64,000 nt of DNA. Origin: Phlebiopsis flavidoalba. Lineage: Eukaryota; Basidiomycota; Agaricomycetes; Polyporales; Phanerochaetaceae. Each line of letters begins with the position of its first letter. Position 1 is the stretch's first letter. Below the pieces are notes generated by a model. It saw only the letters and a list, made by a program, of their open reading frames with translations, was not told the origin of the DNA and made no database searches. Below are positions 27,924-53,310 of the stretch, in pieces. The stretch covers positions 248,001 to 312,000 of the forward strand of contig JAOCPU010000030.1 of NCBI GenBank assembly GCA_035772785.1, given 5' to 3'. The translations under genes and the position numbers were made by a program.

Positions 27924-27929
27924 TATAAA
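27924..27929 (+). promoter_or_regulatory. TATA box of pheromone precursor gene at 28065
   Basis: TATAAA (followed by G) 136 bp upstream of the ATG. It is followed by a G run and then a long C/A-rich leader (CACCACC, CCACCCAG) typical of strongly expressed fungal genes. Confidence 0.55.
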
Positions 27930-28064
27930 GGGGGGGGGTGGGGGCCCGCCAAGGGCTGCAGAGGGGGACCAGCACCCGCCTGCCTTCATCCCGCGCTGTC
28001 AAGCCAGCTTGCAACCCACCCACCACCTTACAACCTTCCCGTTCGCACCCCCAACCACCCAGCA

Positions 28065-28184
28065 ATGCGACGCAGTTTGCTTCATCAGCCTGCCTCCCCA
28101 TCACCTCCGAGGATAGCCCAGCTCCCCCAGGACGAGGAGACCCCAGAGCCGACCACGCTAACATCCTCCTGCGTCATCGCATGA
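28065..28184 (+). CDS. Lipopeptide mating pheromone precursor (CaaX CVIA)
   Basis: A 39-codon intronless ORF ending TSSCVIA-stop, the canonical farnesylation box of basidiomycete mating pheromones. In these fungi the precursor is prenylated on the Cys, trimmed at both ends and secreted to activate STE3-type receptors of compatible mates. As written the protein begins MRRSLLHQPASPSP, but the neighbouring frame right after the ATG reads D-A and then FASSACLPITSEDSPAP, which resembles the MDAF-type N-terminus of the family; one or two base errors near 28068-28075 would explain this. The acidic, Pro-rich centre (PQDEETPEP) is also typical. TATA box and pyrimidine-rich leader lie upstream. No hydrophobic signal peptide is present, as expected for a non-classical export pathway. 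The C-terminus is strong; the N-terminal reading is uncertain. Confidence 0.75.
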   Translation: MRRSLLHQPASPSPPRIAQLPQDEETPEPTTLTSSCVIA

Positions 28185-28189
28185 GCGTA

Positions 28190-30270
28190 TTCGTGTCCTG
28201 CTCTCCTAACTTACTCTTACTTTTTTATCGTAAGTCGTCCTCTCGCACGGCACAATGTTATTCACGTACACCGTGCCCTGCAGACTCGCTTCAATACCCC
28301 GCCTGGCTCACGCCCACTTCGTTTATGCGAGCGCGGGCACCACTATTTTTTCAATCCGATTATCGCAATGCGATACCCACCGTATTTTCTACCGCGCCAC
28401 CTGTTCTGCATCAGCACTACTAGCCCCAGGAGGCTTTTAGTAGAAAAATTCAAGAGAGAATGGGATGTATGATGACGAGGAGAGGGAGGGGAATGAGGCA
28501 GAGGGCTACGAGGTGAGGGGGTGTACGATAAGGATTGGAAGACACGCACTGTAATCCTACGCATTTGTTTTGGTTTCGTCTTTTTTGGCTTTATTGGACT
28601 GATGCATTTGCATCGATGCCTTTCTTGGGAGCCCTCTGTGGCAGCCTGTGTGATGTGGAACGTCTACCCACGCCTAGACTAGTGGCGAGAAGGCAAGTTT
28701 TCCAGGTGGTGCTGGCGACTTACACCGACTAGTGCGATGATGTATGTCAGAGCTATGTTTCCGCCGCCGCATAACACACGCCGATTTGTAGTCTGGCAGG
28801 CACGAGCGAACGTCCGCGGTACTAGCCACGTACCCTTCGCGACACGCACATGTGCTCGCATGTTGACTGCCGGGGAAGGATTAGAGATAGAGCCCGTGGC
28901 TTGGTCCTTGCGCATCTGCCTTGAATTTGTGACGTACACGAACGTCAGCAGCGACGAACCGCTCAAGGGGAGGGTGCGAACCTTGATTTGCGGGTAGGGA
29001 TACCTTGCGGCGAATATTACGAGCGCGCGTACTGTAGGACTTCACGCGACACCGAAGGAGTGGGTCGGTGGTGGGGGGTAACTCCGACCACGACTACCCT
29101 TCGTGGCACACAACATGGGTTTTCATGTTGTCTGCCGCGAAAGGACAAGGCTTGGACTCAGTGGCTTATCTGTACAGCTGAAGTGCTTTCGCCAGAGCGT
29201 ACGGCGAGGGACTGGAGCCAACACAAGGTACTAGGTCTAAACTTGCCTTCCTTGACGGATGTGATGCGGGCTGTCCAGGGTCTTCGATGGATGAAGGTCC
29301 TCACACGGCGAGCGGATGCAAGTAAGCATATGTGGTCGGTTACTGTGAGTTCAAAGCAGCATCCCATATGTTGAGCCGACCCGATCTATTTGTGAACTGC
29401 AGATTACCTGCTGTACCCTTTAGACTTCCTACGTATCGGGACTGTGGCAAGGTCCGTCACTGGTACGGCCGGTAATAAGTACCAGGGCAGACATGGGCGT
29501 GCCCATGGGGCCCTTCGTGGCTACTCAGGATACATGGGCCTCCAAAGGGTATTGAACCCAGCTCACGACTGACCATCAGCTAACCATGTTCCTCGGACCG
29601 AACGAGTCGAACCACAGAAATGAACACAACTCACTCTGCGATCCACGACACCAACTCGCGACCGCGCCAACTCTTGCGTACAAGTCGCATAGGTGCTTGT
29701 CCCGCTCGATCCCAAGAACCCTCGCGACCGTCCCTCCCCCCCGTCACCCGCATTACTCACTTCGCCGTCGCATCTCGCAGATCTCGGAGGCTGCTGTGAT
29801 GTGTTTCAATGTGTTGTCAATGTATCATAGCGAGAGCAGCGGGCACAGTCGCGAAGGTGTTCGTTGCTGGTTGGGATGTGCTTGGCGGGTGGCGGTCGAG
29901 GTGTAACCTGTTTCTTACTCGGTGCACCTCTAAAGTAAGCCCTACGCGTTCCCACGCTCAGCACCCCTATTATCCTTCCTAATGCGCTTTGTTCTCCTCG
30001 TACTCCCAAGTACTGGTCCTCCGAGTAGCATGGTTATTGCTAGTACCCATCACGATTAACAACAGCACCGAATTCACAGCCCTCAGCTTCTCGCCTCACC
30101 GCGTCCTTCGTACGCACGATGACGGGCTGTGCCGCAGCCTTGACGCTAGCCCACGGGGCCCGCAGCCTGATGGGCTCGCAGGGCCGAACGGCCAGGGTAT
30201 ATGAAAGGCTACATGAAAGGCGATAGCACCACCCCCGTCCTTCCCGCTATCCTCTCCCACCAACTTAACC
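28190..30270. other. No recognised gene
   Basis: Open frames (28737-28997 and 28988-29374, both +) are uninterrupted for 86 and 128 codons but match nothing I know. The last 80 bp (TATATGAAAGG near 30196 and a CT-rich leader) is the promoter of the next gene. Confidence 0.4.
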
Positions 30271-39335: not shown

Positions 39336-42300
39336 CTAGTCGTCGTCTTCATCGTCGTCATCGTCGTCAAGCAGCCGTCGGTACACGCTACGACTGCGCC
39401 CCGCCTCGCCAGCTGGACCCTCATGACCCTGTCGTCCGAGACCATCACGATCTCCTCGCGGCCCGTTGAGGGCCCGCGCTGAGCAGGCGCGCCGCGGTGG
39501 CCGTACCCGTACTGCTGCTGGTACGGGTCGAAGAACGCAGACGCGGCGGTGTTGGTCGTCGAGGGCGGGGTGTCGCGCGAAGAGCAGGCGCAGGTTGTTG
39601 CCCTGGATGATCTGAGAGATGCCACCGGTCGTGACGTCGTAGATCTCGACGAAGGTCGGCTCGAATGCGAGCACGTAGGGGTAGTGAAGCGCTGTTACAG
39701 GGTTTAGTCGGGGTGGGATGGGGGGAGGGGGAGGGAACGTACCGAAGCCTGTGGGCCGGCCCTCCCAGTGGATCTTGAAGTCTTTGCGGGACCACCAGCC
39801 GGCTTTGTCCACGTAGAAAGCGAACTCTGTTAGCGCGTGAGAAAACACCGGCGTGGGGGATGGGAAAAGGAAAAGACGGACCGTCGTAGCAGAGCAAAAA
39901 CTCGTTTGTCAATGCGATAGATGGCCATGGGCCGGAGCTCCTCCTTCTTGCGCGCAAAGTTGAGCGTCGTGTCCGCAGGGTCGAGCAGGCCCTGCGTGTC
40001 GAGCGTCTCGAGGTCGACGATCTCGAAGCCGTTCGTGCAGCCCACGCACAGGCGCGTCTTGAGGAAATGTATCGAGCTCGACTGCACTGGAATATAAAAC
40101 TCCTACACCCAGCCAATCAACGGCTTTTCAACCTCCGAAGCGGTGATGTCACGCACCTTGAACAGCCGGAGCGTGTCGTTGCCGCCTTGGAGCAGCATTC
40201 TTGAAACGTCGGTCTCCGCGCACCGCGCACAGTCGTCTCGATTGGTTCGAGACCTTGATCGTGCTCGACAGCGCGCTCGTCTTGACGACGCACACGAGCG
40301 TCTTACCCAGACATATCCCCGCCTTGAAGAACGAAATATGGCTCGCGATGCGTTTCGCGCGCTTCAGGCCCCCATGGGGTCCATCGCGTCCATCGCGTCG
40401 AGCGGCACCGTGATCACCTGCCGCTCTGCACCGGCGGTGCGCGTGTTAGAGGACAGAGCTGTAGTGAGTGCGAGAAGGACGCACCGGAGAGCACGATCAG
40501 CAGCCCGTAGTGCTCGAGCACGTCGATCTGAGTCACGTCGACCAGCGCGAGCACCTTTGTCGGCTCGCGGTTGTATTCGGCCAGATTCGACATGTACACG
40601 CCGTCCGCCGTGCCGTACACGAGCCGCTGGCCGTGTTCTACACATCATCAGCTCATCATACACCAGGACAGGGGACACGACGCGTACCAAACGGCGCCGC
40701 ACAATTGACCCTGTTCGCGCCAATGAAAAAGCCCTCGTTGAGCGAAACAGTCTCAAAGATGAGACTGCGCTCGCGCATCGCGTCCTGCTGCTTCGTGATG
40801 TGCTCGACCCACTTGCGCTGGGAGATGTACGTGCTCGCCCAGAGCGTGATCTCGTAGTACTCGCGCCCGAGGCGCACAAACGTGATCGAGAACCCGCCCT
40901 TGCCCTCCTTGACCGCGACGACGGGCGCGTGCGGCATGTTCTTCAGCAGCGCCTTCTGCTTCCCCGTCTTGTGGTTCGTCGGGTTCTCGTCCGGCGCAGA
41001 CACGAGCAGCAGCTCCAGCGGGATCGGCTGCGCGCGTGTGTTCTTAACAGACAAGTATTGGGTAGAAGGGGGGAACGTACCGGGCGGTAGGCCTTGTAAA
41101 GCTCGGAGCGACTCTTTTGCTTCACCATGAGCAGCGCGTGGTCGAACAAGAACACGAGCAGCTCCGCGCTGTCGCCCTGTCCTCCACCTCGCTTCTTCAG
41201 CGGGCCCTTGTACACGAGCTCGCGGCCCTCTTCTTGCAAGCGTAGGTCCTGTACGTGCTCCATCAAACACCGTTTCACGCGAGCGCATATAGCCACTCAC
41301 CAGCTTCTCGCCGTCCCGAGTGACCAGCTGTTGCTCGAGCTGCAACAAGTTGAACCTGTTCTCGGCCTTCCCCGTCTCCGCGTTGACCGCGCGGAGGAAC
41401 TCGCGAACCATCTCGATGACCCTCGGAAGCTCCTTCTTGTCCGGATTGTCCTCCTTCGTGTGTTTCAGCACGGCCCTCGAGTAGCAGTGGGTACCGCGCC
41501 AGACGCGTCGTCGGCTTCGTCAGGTACCCATTCAGCTCCAAAACTTCCTGGACTCTGGCCGCCGCTCGGTTTCCTAGTGGAGTTAAGGCGCCATACGCTC
41601 GCTCAAGAGAAAACACACGCGCTTACGCACCTCGACAAAATGCGCAAACGCAGGGTTCGTGCTCTTCTCCTTCTCAAACTCGTACTTGCCGTACAGCTGG
41701 TGCGCGCCGTAGGAGACAAAGGGCGCAAAGTGCGGGACCGCGTCCAGCAGGATGTCGCCGACGCGCTCGACGAGCGCGTACTGCTTCTGCCGCTTGTTCA
41801 GCGCGTCCCGCAGCCGCGTGTTCACCGCGATGATGTCGTGGATGTTCCAAAAGACCTGCTCCAGGAAGTCTGTCCGCCGCGGCTCCGGATGATGTCCCGT
41901 TCCCGCAGGGGCTTGATCCACAGCTGCAGGCGCGTCAGCACAGGTTCTCCGCGTGCGCGTTTGAAAGACTCACATCGCGTAGGTATTCCATGTCGCGTAC
42001 AAAATCTCGTTCTGTGTAGATTACTTCATTGATCGCTTCCTGCCGCTTTTTCTCGCTGTCTGATACACTGTCTACAATAGCTTGAGGTACAGAGTGGATC
42101 CAGAGCGTTCCAGGCTCCTACAAAAGGTGAGTGCCCCCACCCACAAACATTGAAATGAGCACGCGCCACGACAAGATCCCCCAAGCTCTCCTTGCTAATC
42201 TGTTTCTTCAGTCCCGGCTGAAGCTTCATGTTGAGCCGCGCCTGCTGCTCCAATCTCCGTGGACATGCAATTGAATAACAAAGCCGGTCTTTTGAGCATG

Positions 42301-44081
42301 TCGGCGAGTAACAGTCCGTAAGGAGCGTGAAAACACCTGTTGGTAGTGGCACGTCGTCCGAGGTGACCGAGCCCGACCGCGGGCGGGTTGCAGGCGACAC
42401 CACTGAGTCCGGGGGTGAAGGAGAGCCATCTCGCTGTCCTTTTTCGCCGCCGGATTCAATCGACTGCGTCGGACTCGCCCTTGGGCTCGCCCTCCTTGCC
42501 CTCGAGGAGCGCCGCGGCCTTCGCCACCGTCTCCTTCACGCTGACGCTCTCGCCGTCCTGGTCAACGAGCTCGCCCGACGTGAATGGGCTCGGCATCTTG
42601 GTGCGGAACTGGTAGAGGTCGTTCGAGGAGTCGCGGAGGCGGTGGTCGTAGGTAACGGCGTGGAAGAATTTCTTGCGCGTCGAGCGCGCGCGCGGCCGAG
42701 CAGCAGCGCGAGGTTCCGGTCCGTCGTCTTGATGATGTACGCGATCTTGTCGACCGCCTCCCGGCCGTCGAACGCGTCCTTGAACGCCAGCCCATCCTTT
42801 GCCCGGTCGCACAGCTGTATTCGGTCCTTGAACGCCTGGGCGGACCTTGGAGAGCAGCGCGGGGTTGACAACGATCGGCCGCCGCGCGTGCGCCCGGTGG
42901 TGGCTGCCCGTTGAGTCGCGCGTCCCAGGGGCATCGGCGGCATCACGGGTCGCGGGACACGGCCGTTCTCGAGCATCGCGCGCATTTGCGGGGTGACTGC
43001 CGCCGACATGGACCGTGAGCGGTCCTGGGCGGTTCGGTCGCGTTTTGCGAGCTGATTGGGCAACGTCCGGGACGACTCTGAAGAGCGGCGTCCAGATGGG
43101 CCAGGGGGGTTCGGAGGCGCCGAGAGTAGTAGCCCGAGGGCGAGTGGTCGACGGGCGATGGAGGATGGCGGGGGGACGTGCTGGGCCAGGGGCATGTGGG
43201 GAATGCACAACAGTGTCCACCTGGAGTGGGTACGGGCGAGAAGAAGGTCGAAGAAGGCAAGAGGCTGTTCTGGAATGGTGTGCAAAAGGTCGATGCGGCG
43301 GACAGCCGGGACCTGACGCTCTCGGGCTGTGAGCGACCTGGCTGCTGGGTGTATCCAATGTCCCAAGTTCCCGTTCGGTTTGTGTGCGGCAGCGTTGACA
43401 CCAGGAAATCAAGCCCCCAGCTTGCCGTCGTCGGTCTGCAGATCGAGGCGGTATCTGGGGAAGGCCATTTGGGGCGGAGCGACGATCTGCGGGGCGCGAT
43501 TCGAGCTTCGACTGCGACTGGCCCATGGGAGTCTTCATGTAAATCTGCGCCTGATACGCCTGGGCAGGCGTGAGGCCCTGTCCCGAGTGAGAGGGCTTCA
43601 AGACCCGGGTCTGGGGGTTCCTCTGGAGTGGGCGCAAATGACCGAGAGGCGAGGCGACCGACCGACCAGCGCGCGCGGCTGGCGAGTGAGGGCGCGGCGA
43701 GGGTGTTGGTCGCCGTAATGGGAGTAGAATTTGGAGGGCGGGTAGGGGGAGTAGTAGGGCTGCTGGTACGCCTGTGGGTGGTGGAGGCTGGGGTGCGCGT
43801 AGTAGGACAGAGTACGACTGGGCGTATGGATTCGGGGGCACCTGCGGCGAGGATTTCATCGATGGGGCCATGGACGACGCATAGGACGTCCCTGCGGTCG
43901 AGCTGGGTGTAATATTGGCCGTTCGCCGGCTGCTGGCCATACTGCAGCGGGGGCTGTTGCGGCTGGTGGTGGCTCTCGCATGCTCGGGCGGCGCGAAGAT
44001 GGACTCGTAGACGGCGTTGCCGGCGTTCAAAACTCGTTGCGCTTGGCCGGTTGCGAGCGGGGACCTATGGGGCGGTCGCAT
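39336..44081 (-). CDS. Rho1 guanine nucleotide exchange factor (Rom2/Rgf1 type, DEP-DH-PH-CNH)
   Basis: Activates Rho1 GTPase at the plasma membrane to control cell-wall synthesis and polarity. Long N-terminal Pro/Gln/Ser-rich disordered region (start MRPPHRSPLATGQAQRVLNA, then NAVYESIFAPPE). DEP domain about 42850-42580 (FKDRIQLCDRAKDGLAFKDA, AYIIKTTDRNLALLLGRA, FFHAVTYDHRLRDSSNDLYQ). Linker with Ser-rich and LNMKLQPGLKKQISKESLGD. DH domain about 42080-41310 (RQEAINEVIYTERDFVRDM, DFLEQVFWNIHDIIAVNTRL, YGKYEFEKEKSTNPAF, LNGYLTKPTTRLARYPLLLE). PH domain about 41280-40750 (GRELVYKGPLKKRGGGQGDS, LLVFLFDHALLMVKQK, YEITLWASTYISQRKWVEHI). CNH domain about 40700-39480 (RLVYGTADGVYMSNL, VTQIDVLEHYGLLIVLSG, LCVGCTNGFEIVDLETLDTQ, LHYPYVLAFEPTFVEIYDV). 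Ends in an Asp/Glu tail and stop. Many small frame shifts but every domain is present. Confidence 0.9.
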
Positions 44082-44348
44082 CGTCGAGCACGGCGTCGGG
44101 CAGGGCAGCGAGGAGGTGGTGGTGGGAGATTACATAAAAGCGACGCGGCTCGCGTCCCTCGACACCTTGCGTCGTGACGCACAACGTCAGTAACCGCGCA
44201 AATTTCGGGCCCTCGTAGTCGTCTCGTATCGTTCGCTCACAAGCACACGGCGACGGGCGTCGGGCGCGGCGAGGTGGTTGGATGGTGGAATGAAGAGCGA
44301 TGGGGCGTGCGCGGGCTCGCGCGCCCGCTGACATCTCGCTGCGACAAC

Positions 44349-50225: not shown

Positions 50226-52445
50226 ATGGCACCACGTCGAGAACCGAGTATTACGACTGGGTGTCGTGCGGCTATAATCCTCACCTGCGCGAAGAGGTGA
50301 CCTGACCGCTGCGCTGAGTGTAGCTGCTGGGCGTGCCGACCGACGTCGGCGACACAGAGCTGAAGAAGGCGTACCGCAAGCAGGCCATCAAGGTCATTGC
50401 TTGTCCTCTGCTCGTATGCGATCGCGTGGCTGAGACACGAGCGCGAGCGAACTCAAACGCTGGCGCGGATGTTGTGTGTTGTACTAGCCCATCACCGGAC
50501 AAGAACCCGTCGCCTGAGGCGGATAGAGAAGTTCAAGGATATTAGGTGCGTACTACTAACACTACTAGATTGGATTTGTAATTCGGATATTATGCTCATT
50601 TTTGCGAGGCAGCAAAGCGTACCCAGGGTCTTGTCTGATCCTGTAAGTTCCCTCTGCCCATTTAATGTCCGGACATGATCAGGATGAATATCTTGTGCAG
50701 AATCTGCGTGCGGTATATGATCGCAATGGCGCAAAAGATGATAGACAAGGAGGGCGGTATCGGCATGGAAGACGCCGCCGGATTTTTTCGCAAACGTCTT
50801 CGGTGGCGAGCGATTCAAAGACTACGTGCGCGCCCCGCCTCCCTACATATCCGCGGTAATAATTCACGCATGCACCATATAGATCGGCGAAATCTCGTTG
50901 ATGAAGGAGATGACGTCCGTCGCGACGACGATGATGAGCGAGGAGGAGAAGGCGGAGATGGAACGCGAGATGAACGGAGGGCAGGGGCGCCGTCTCGCCG
51001 TCCGCCAGCACGCCGCCCGCCGGTGTCACGAACACGCCAGCGGCCACTGAAGCTGCGAATGGCGCATCCGCGCCTGCCGCGGAGCCCGGCACGTCGCTCG
51101 CCGCGTCCCCCCTCCCCTCGCCCGGCGAGGGCGAGCAGAAGGCCATCGGGGCGCAGCCGCATAAAGACAAAAAGGAGGACAAGAAAAAGAAGATCACGCC
51201 TGAGCAGAAGAAAAGCTGCAGGAGCTGGAGGAGGAGCGGCGGAAGAATATGGAGGAGCGGATCAAGTCCCTGACAGACAAGCTCATTGAGAGGCTGCGGC
51301 CGTTCGTCAACGGGGAAAGACAAAAACACACATGCGAAGCGGCCCGGTGACAAGGATGATCCCGAGACGCAGCAGTTTTTGAGCAGAAGATTAAAAGGGA
51401 GGCGGACGATATGAAGCTGGAGAGTTTTGGTGGTTGAGGTGCGTGCCCGCCAGGTTTTCGATTGGTAACGTATATGCTCATGGTGGTGCAGCTTCTCCAT
51501 ACGATCGGCAAATATCTACATCATGAAGGCCACAACGTTCATGAAGTCGAAGAAGTTCCTTGGAATGTACGTCGCAATAAGAGTTCACAGTTGGCGTAGC
51601 TGGCACTGAGACAGCCGCATTTAGTCCAGGGTTCTTCTCACGTCTGAAGGAGAAGGGAGCCATGGCGAAGGAGACATGGGGAGTCATTGGCAGCGCGTAA
51701 GTTGTGTGGTATGTTTCGCCCAGTTCCATTCTTGTAACAAATCCCAGGATTGGTGTGTTCCAGCAAATGATTAATGTAAGTCTCGTCGCACATGTGATGA
51801 AAAAAAGTGCTCAACCCCCTGGTTGTAGGAAATGGAGAAGATGCAAGAAAAGGGCGAAGTTGCGGAGGAGGAGCTGCGCGCGATCGAAGAAGACATCACC
51901 GGCAGGGTGCGCATTCACACCATTTACGGGTTACGGGTTTCTCAAGTACTCTTGTCTGACACATATACAGATTATGCTTGCGTCATGGCGGGGAACCCGT
52001 TATGAAGTGGTTGGCGTTCTTCGAGAGGTCTGTGACAAGGTTCTCAAGGACTCGTCGGTCAACGATCAGGAGCTTTAACACTCGCGCAAAGGTAAAGAGT
52101 TATCTTACCACGATTAATGTGGCATATCTCAACATTGACTGTGGCAGGGAATGCTCATCATGGGCGCGATCTTCAAGAATACGAAGCCAGATGAGTCCGA
52201 CGAGGAGCGTAGGGAGCTAGAGAGGTACGTGTACCCTCCACATTTTACTCCGTCTGTGCTGAGTAGATCACCGTAGAATGGTCGCTGAGGCCGCAGCGGG
52301 CAAGTCAAAGCACCACCAGCTACAGGCGCAAGCCCGGGCAGCCGCGAAGCAGAAGAAACATGCTTCACATGGCTCACCAGCCGCTGTCGAGGCTGACAAA
52401 GACAAACCTGCCGCCCCCGCTGCCGCCCCCGCTACTTTGTCGTAA
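50226..52445 (+). CDS. J-domain protein with C-terminal DnaJ-X domain (Caj1/Djp1-like)
   Basis: Hsp70 co-chaperone of the class that in yeast includes Caj1 and Djp1 (peroxisomal import, membrane-associated). Start MAP then, after small shifts, VETEYYD; an intron ends at TAG before LLGVPTDVGDTELKKAYRKQ (50323). A second intron precedes the HPD loop: the DNA reads CATCACCGGACAAG, so H-PDK is recovered only if two bases are extra. NPSPEA, a QVLSDP-like helix, LRAVYDRNGAK, GMEDAAGFFANVFGGERFKD, and GEISLMKEMTSV follow. A Lys/Glu-rich coiled region (EDKKKKITPEQKKKLQELEE, ERIKSLTDKLIERLRPFV) leads into the X domain: LLHTIGKYLHH, PGFFSRLKEKGAMAKETWGV, INEMEKMQEKGEVAEEELRA and AIFKNTKPDESDEERRELE. 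Ends in an Ala/Lys/His-rich tail, PAAAPATLS-stop. Many short introns. Confidence 0.85.
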
Positions 52446-53073
52446 ACGTCGCCTGGGTCGACCTCTCTGTTTGGGGTTCGCGTGCTAGCTCCGTCCTCAT
52501 AGTGCTGCATCTCGGCTGATTTAGACTTTCGTGGAACCTTTTACTTGGTTGTTATTGCTGCCAGCCGTACATACGCCTACACACTCTAATGATTTATATT
52601 ACGAATTCTCTCAGATATGCTTCATCTTCTTACTGATCAGTTATGACGCACACGGGCGGTGATCCTGGGGAAACCCAAATAATTCGGGATACAATCGAGA
52701 TACAATGCTTGGTGGTATGTGATTAGTGTCCTGTTTGTGACATGTCTACTAACATATCCCCTCAGCGACTCTACTACTCCTACACCGCTTCCTTTGCTCT
52801 ACCCTGCCAATCCTACACCACAATCCTACACTTCCCCAGTCGAATAAGCGAATCGTTGTGCGGAATGGACATCGCACGAATAAGGATAGAATAAAAGGCG
52901 ACGTCCGAAATCAATCTTCGAGGGACGACCGCGGGAGAAAGAAGTCGAATGGTCATAAATCGTCAACGACTCTCAACAGAGCCTACATAGCGACACGTCA
53001 GACCGCTTGCTATGAGCCGGAAGGGCGGTTACATACCTGAGTCATAAGCAGATGTTGTGGTGGGTCCTGGTAC

Positions 53074-53196
53074 TCATGCGATGGTGCACGAGGACGAGAT
53101 GCCCGAGTTGCCAGAGCTGTCCTGGTCTGATGGGACCTCCTGCTCGGGGGGGATGGTGGCGGGGACGGGAGCGGCGAGAGTGAAGAAGGCGTCCAT
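53074..53196 (-). CDS. Lipopeptide mating pheromone precursor (CaaX CTIA)
   Basis: A 40-codon, intronless, uninterrupted ORF. It begins MDAFFTLAAPVPATIPP, matching the MD[AS]F-T-L start common in basidiomycete pheromone precursors, has an acidic centre (EQEVPSDQDSS), and ends SSSCTIA-stop, a CaaX box for farnesylation. The product should be prenylated and carboxymethylated on Cys, cleaved to a peptide of roughly 10-14 residues and exported without a signal peptide to act on STE3-type receptors. Length is slightly short for the family (about 40-60). It sits alone between the J-domain gene and the RRT8-like gene, on the opposite strand to both. TATA box 107 bp upstream and a C/A-rich leader; an out-of-frame ATG lies five bases before the chosen start. 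This is the cleaner of the two precursors in the window. Confidence 0.82.
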   Translation of the reverse strand: MDAFFTLAAPVPATIPPEQEVPSDQDSSGNSGISSSCTIA

Positions 53197-53302
53197 GGCA
53201 TATCTGCACGGAAGGTGTGGTACGTGGGTGGTGGTGGTGAGGTGGAGGGGCTGTTCGACGACTCTGCTCGGCTGAGGGGGGGCCTCCCTGCGCGCTGCCA
53301 AA

Positions 53303-53310
53303 CTTTATAT
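53303..53310 (-). promoter_or_regulatory. TATA box of pheromone precursor gene at 53196
   Basis: ATATAAAG on the minus strand, 107 bp upstream of the ATG, followed by a CACC-rich leader. Same core (TATAAAG) and similar spacing as at the other precursor gene. Confidence 0.55.

Follow-up and report, generated by a model that had tools for sequence, protein, structure and literature searches.

A conserved open reading frame that is very probably a pheromone precursor gene lies on a contig where no STE3 match was found

The window, a stretch of 64,000 nucleotides from positions 248001-312000 of a 385 kb contig (C30) in a genome of 36.3 Mb and 129 contigs, carries on its minus strand an ORF that is very probably a pheromone precursor gene, either working now or having done so until recently. 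Directly observed are the ORF, its motifs, its conservation, the one copy found and a contig free of receptor matches. Translation of the minus strand of 53074-53196 gives MDAFFTLAAPVPATIPPEQEVPSDQDSSGNSGISSSCTIA followed by a stop, which confirms the 40-codon frame, the MDAF start and the CTIA end that an earlier note on this DNA had described; the acidic centre proposed in the same note is borne out by E18, E20, D24 and D26, the acidic residues of a protein that has no basic ones. The marks used to recognise farnesylated pheromone precursors of agaricomycetes, namely a length of at most about 100 aa, an MD(A/S/D)F start and a CaaX box at the stop, are found here as 40 aa, MDAF and CTIA. The initiating ATG has the context GCCATGG, and a search with the precursor protein found one place in the 36.3 Mb genome. 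The coding features are:

53074..53196, minus strand: pheromone precursor coding sequence, 40 codons plus stop (translation, genome search, two relatives)
53185..53196, minus strand: MDAF start motif (translation; motif described for Pycnoporus and Agaricus precursors)
53077..53088, minus strand: CaaX box CTIA, abutting the stop (translation; the same in 3/3 aligned sequences)
53086..53121, minus strand: predicted mature peptide D26-C37, 12 residues (presumed cut at the DR site of the relatives; Agaricus length 11-13 aa)

Conservation in two other sources is stronger evidence for the gene than the chance controls described below. A search through 5.8 billion proteins, working by shared 5-residue words, returned two relatives of 39 aa each: P0002, an ENA sequence without a name (90-92% identical to the precursor), and P0003, Phlebiopsis gigantea PHLGIDRAFT_534792 (85-87% identical). 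P0003 bears a UniRef name that is printed in part and begins 'B mating typ', so that one of the two relatives is named after mating type and the other is unnamed. Alignment to relatives, proposed earlier as a check, shows the full-length ORF, the start motif and the CaaX box kept in both P. gigantea and the ENA sequence. The three sequences agree in 34 of the 40 columns, among them MDAFFTLAAPVPAT and the final six residues, and over the last 14 residues they agree in 12; the presumed mature end differs solely by two S/T exchanges, both in P. gigantea. P0003 thus shares with the window protein the MDAFFTLAAPVPAT start, the SSCTIA end and identity over the whole query, but is 39 rather than 40 aa long and has DR where the window protein has DQ. 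In all three sequences the polar T follows the Cys, which would make the box a CpaX box as the Trichaptum paper uses that name; the form was reported there for Trichaptum, and its authors, in the sections drawn on here, were aware of no example among other basidiomycetes (PMC8970355).

Even at an E-value of 10, the precursor protein gives no match to PF08015, the pheromone profile of Pfam. Both relatives are likewise listed without a precomputed Pfam domain, so the profile does not cover this branch. Genome-wide, PF08015 has a sole match, on C55; it scores 13.9 bits, below the cut-off, is low-complexity sequence and was set aside. A PDB sequence search with the precursor protein returned nothing. 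In the P. gigantea genome paper (PMC4256170), 'pheromone' is absent and 'mating' occurs once, in a reference.

In tetrapolar fungi, precursor genes are tightly linked to STE3 receptor genes (PMC8970355). An exon-wise genome search with PF02076 (STE3), whose counts are lower bounds, gave at least eight matches, on contigs C23, C32 and C69; 0/8 lie on the 385 kb contig that holds the window. The earlier statement that no STE3 gene is nearby therefore stands as far as this search reaches, and the precursor is not filed as a B (P/R) locus gene because its contig has no STE3 match. The STE3 exon on C32 has as its nearest named receptor the 'mating-type-like pheromone receptor' of P. gigantea (78%), followed by those of Phanerochaete sordida (62%) and P. 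carnosa (58%); two unnamed database proteins (78% and 84%) outrank the named receptors. The exon thus places the species closer to Phlebiopsis than to Phanerochaete. On C69, three STE3 matches fall within 13 kb (57761-70351), a cluster that is possibly the ortholog of a B mating-type locus.

A strict CaaX box was defined as C[VITAL][ILVMTA][ASVM]. No ATG-started ORF of 30-110 aa ending in one was found in 175 kb of STE3 flanks on C23, C69 and C32, a search that passes over precursors with introns, with unusual boxes or at greater distance; the 18 kb beside the window also gave none, and C69 35001-85000 holds no recognisable precursor gene. The C32 flank has one strict-CaaX ORF of 23 aa, below the size range. 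Laxer boxes in the STE3 flanks yielded several ORFs, none of them MD-started as judged by eye, and a CTIA end at C69:58545 was dropped, lying 16 codons after a stop and lacking an ATG. As regards linkage to the HD (A) locus, the profiles PF05920, PF12737 and PF12731 have no match anywhere in the genome and so give no position for that locus. The peptidase M3 family includes the A-locus marker MIP; its matches lie on C3, C50 and C52, with 0/8 on C30.

Within the window a strict CaaX box ends two of the 423 ATG-started ORFs of 30-80 aa. One is the precursor; the other, about 25 kb away, is a weaker candidate:

28065..28184, plus strand: second pheromone-precursor-like ORF, 39 aa, MRRSLL start, CVIA box
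27924..27930, plus strand: TATAAAG, 141 nt before the ATG of the second candidate
28230..28283, plus strand: possible 3' UTR intron of the second candidate (weak, by the ORF control given below for the main gene)

The C-terminus of the second ORF is TSSCVIA, with DEE placed 11 residues ahead of the Cys, and the ORF is preceded by a leader of nearly the same composition as that of the main precursor (48% C, 22% A). It has no MD.F start. A homologue search, with a query that carried three extra upstream codons, found none; the genome search recovered only the ORF itself, and a six-frame Pfam scan of 24.5-29.4 kb around it found no family. We consider the chances that it is a second pheromone precursor about evenly balanced. 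Another frame just past its ATG reads DAVCFISL; we draw no conclusion from its likeness to an MD.F start. The earlier description of the 53074-53196 gene as isolated has to be qualified, as a second CaaX ORF with a TATA element and a C-rich leader lies 25 kb away.

These data bear on what kind of pheromone the gene would encode. The precursor probably does not determine mating type: a non-mating-type role is the most likely one, since the protein changes little from species to species and the receptor search gave no match on its contig. In both respects, a receptor-free contig and conservation across species, the gene fits the dispersed type of bipolar Agaricus bisporus. The basis of this reading is three sequences and a receptor search made exon by exon, and the name 'B mating typ' of P0003 counts against it. 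That name, together with an architecture that fits and a second candidate 25 kb away, is what favours a precursor of the same family that does determine mating type at a B (P/R) locus, with its receptor elsewhere on the same chromosome or moved away; B loci hold several precursor genes, and Trichaptum has two per strain (PMC8970355). We regard such a mating-type gene as unlikely: the 385 kb contig has none of the eight STE3 matches, and the three sequences share 12 of their last 14 residues, while precursors of B mating type are as a rule highly distinct (PMC4101180). The identification as a farnesylated mating pheromone precursor made in the earlier note is upheld for the family, through the conserved ORF, start and CaaX box; its 'mating' part is not, as conservation and a receptor-free contig fit a non-mating-type pheromone at least as well.

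Lipid pheromone precursors are farnesylated on the CaaX Cys, trimmed and carboxymethylated; cleavage takes place behind the MDS/AF part as well as at a charged dipeptide (PMC8305134, section 3.5). The dipeptide rule is loose, given as 'such as ER/DR/EH/NH/EE/DE', some 11-13 aa ahead of the Cys (PMC8305134). Both relatives read SDRD at the presumed site, and in both DR precedes a 12-residue peptide that ends at the Cys; the window protein reads SDQD. Processing may therefore differ, since DQ replaces DR and the window protein has no adjacent pair of charged residues anywhere; judging from the sequence, it may be altered or lost. This substitution is the main sequence-level doubt about function, and an upstream ATG is the second. 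The features on the 5' and 3' sides of the gene are:

53303..53309, minus strand: TATAAAG, 113 nt before the precursor ATG
53197..53273, minus strand: presumed C/A-rich leader, 77 nt before the ATG (45% C, 25% A)
53010..53201, minus strand: overlapping 63-aa ORF from an out-of-frame upstream ATG at 53201 (translation, context)
52983..53036, minus strand: possible 3' UTR intron of the main precursor gene (weak; the pattern is common among ORFs)

The promoter element and the short C/A-rich leader noted earlier were both found again: read along the minus strand, TATAAAG starts at 53309, and the composition of the leader is as listed, over a stretch whose 5' end was set arbitrarily 36 nt past the start of the TATA element. 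The upstream out-of-frame ATG, which the earlier note does not mention, sits 5 nt before the precursor start; it may lower translation, or leaky scanning may pass over it. On the 3' side, the possible UTR introns are weak because an intron-like pattern occurs within 100 nt of the stop in 58 of the 423 window ORFs. Pfam scans of 51.0-54.3 kb (minus strand) and 54.0-56.7 kb (both strands) found no family. Past the 3' end of the pheromone gene lies a convergent neighbour, stretches of which match the DnaJ-containing protein X-domain (PF14308) at 51252-52075 on the plus strand; judged by eye, it may extend to about 52446. Further away, frames at 40656-44129 (minus strand) are, by eye, suggestive of a Rho-type exchange factor.

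The two doubts might be read as signs of decay, i.e., of a precursor gene of the same family whose frame is still intact after the P/R mating-type function was lost in a bipolar lineage. The processing dipeptide present in 2/2 relatives is gone (SDQD vs SDRD), the upstream ATG would impair translation, and the P/R mating-type role is reported to have been lost in Phanerochaete chrysosporium and Agaricus bisporus (PMC8305134). Yet the frame, the start, the CaaX box and most residues are kept, and the cleavage rule is loose (PMC8305134), so that decay is distinctly improbable, more so than a mating-type-determining gene.

Chance controls address a more basic alternative. In 100 dinucleotide shuffles of the window, strict-CaaX ORFs arose at a mean of 0.5, with at least one in 38/100 and at least two in 10/100; a CaaX box alone is thus weak evidence. 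The combinations are more discriminating: neither an MD.F start with a CaaX box nor a CaaX ORF with TATAAA at -200 to -60 arose in any of the 100 shuffles. TATAAA lies at -200 to -60 in both real CaaX ORFs, as against 10 of the 423 ORFs overall; the joint probability, calculated by hand, is roughly 5 in 10,000, which is a guide only because the TATA test was picked after the element had been noticed in both. A genome-wide, 21-place start pattern (MD[AST]Fx[AST], then a codon with T in second place) was found at 19 places, vs 7 for the reversed control pattern, and only one of the 19, the 53074-53196 ORF, is followed by a CaaX-ended ORF. The loci retrieved by the searches held one other ORF with a strict CaaX end, of 30 aa on contig C12; having no MD.F start, it was taken as chance. 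That the MDAF frame is itself a chance ORF, with either a non-coding transcript or the overlapping 63-aa ORF that starts at 53201 as the real product, is extremely improbable: several ORFs do overlap in the region and strict-CaaX ORFs occur in 38/100 shuffled windows, but the MDAF frame is conserved full-length in two other sources, and neither combination above came up in the shuffles.

Precursors of the same build are described in other agaricomycetes. Those of Pycnoporus cinnabarinus, likened here by description only, share a length of 39-65 aa, an MDA/DF start and a CaaX box (PMC4101180). Phanerochaete chrysosporium is bipolar, with five STE3 genes alongside five precursors (PMC4101180). 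Agaricus bisporus, also bipolar, has non-mating-type pheromone-like precursors that resemble the window protein in being short, with an MDS/AF start, a CaaX box and a mature peptide of 11-13 aa (PMC8305134). They differ in their length of 44-54 aa, and ESTs show at least three of the four to be expressed; the predicted window peptide is serine-rich where Agaricus peptides are glycine-rich (PMC8305134). The SGN motif in consensus peptides quoted for other species in PMC8305134 gives a weak likeness to the window peptide. The authors of that paper, in the sections drawn on here, did not know in 2021 whether mushroom STE3-like receptors without a mating role interact with pheromones (PMC8305134).

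On the preferred, non-mating-type reading, the precursor would be the source of a farnesylated, carboxymethylated peptide pheromone in an agaricomycete close to P. gigantea, and we infer its transcription, processing, receptor and role as follows. C37 would be farnesylated, TIA lost and the new end methylated; a cut would then release a peptide of about 12 residues, DSSGNSGISSSC, for export. The exported peptide would be sensed by one STE3 receptor encoded on another contig and could serve as a constant signal, e.g., in self-signalling, in fusion or in post-fusion nuclear behaviour. A wider picture can be offered tentatively and with more doubt than confidence: this lineage of Phanerochaetaceae may keep a conserved non-mating-type pheromone, encoded together with a second and rapidly diverging one in a part of one contig that is free of receptors, with STE3 genes on C23, C32 and C69 that have no recognisable pheromone gene in the 175 kb of flanks searched, the peptide being the constant ligand of a non-mating STE3 receptor.

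The gene belongs to an already known kind, and the interest it adds is modest, lying in its conservation, its receptor-free location and its altered cleavage dipeptide. Such genes are easily lost, because PF08015 misses this one and because the Trichaptum study treated precursor matches far from STE3 as false positives and threw them out (PMC8970355). With its conservation between species and no receptor match on the contig of its gene, the predicted pheromone offers a concrete candidate for a ligand, one that can be synthesised and assayed.
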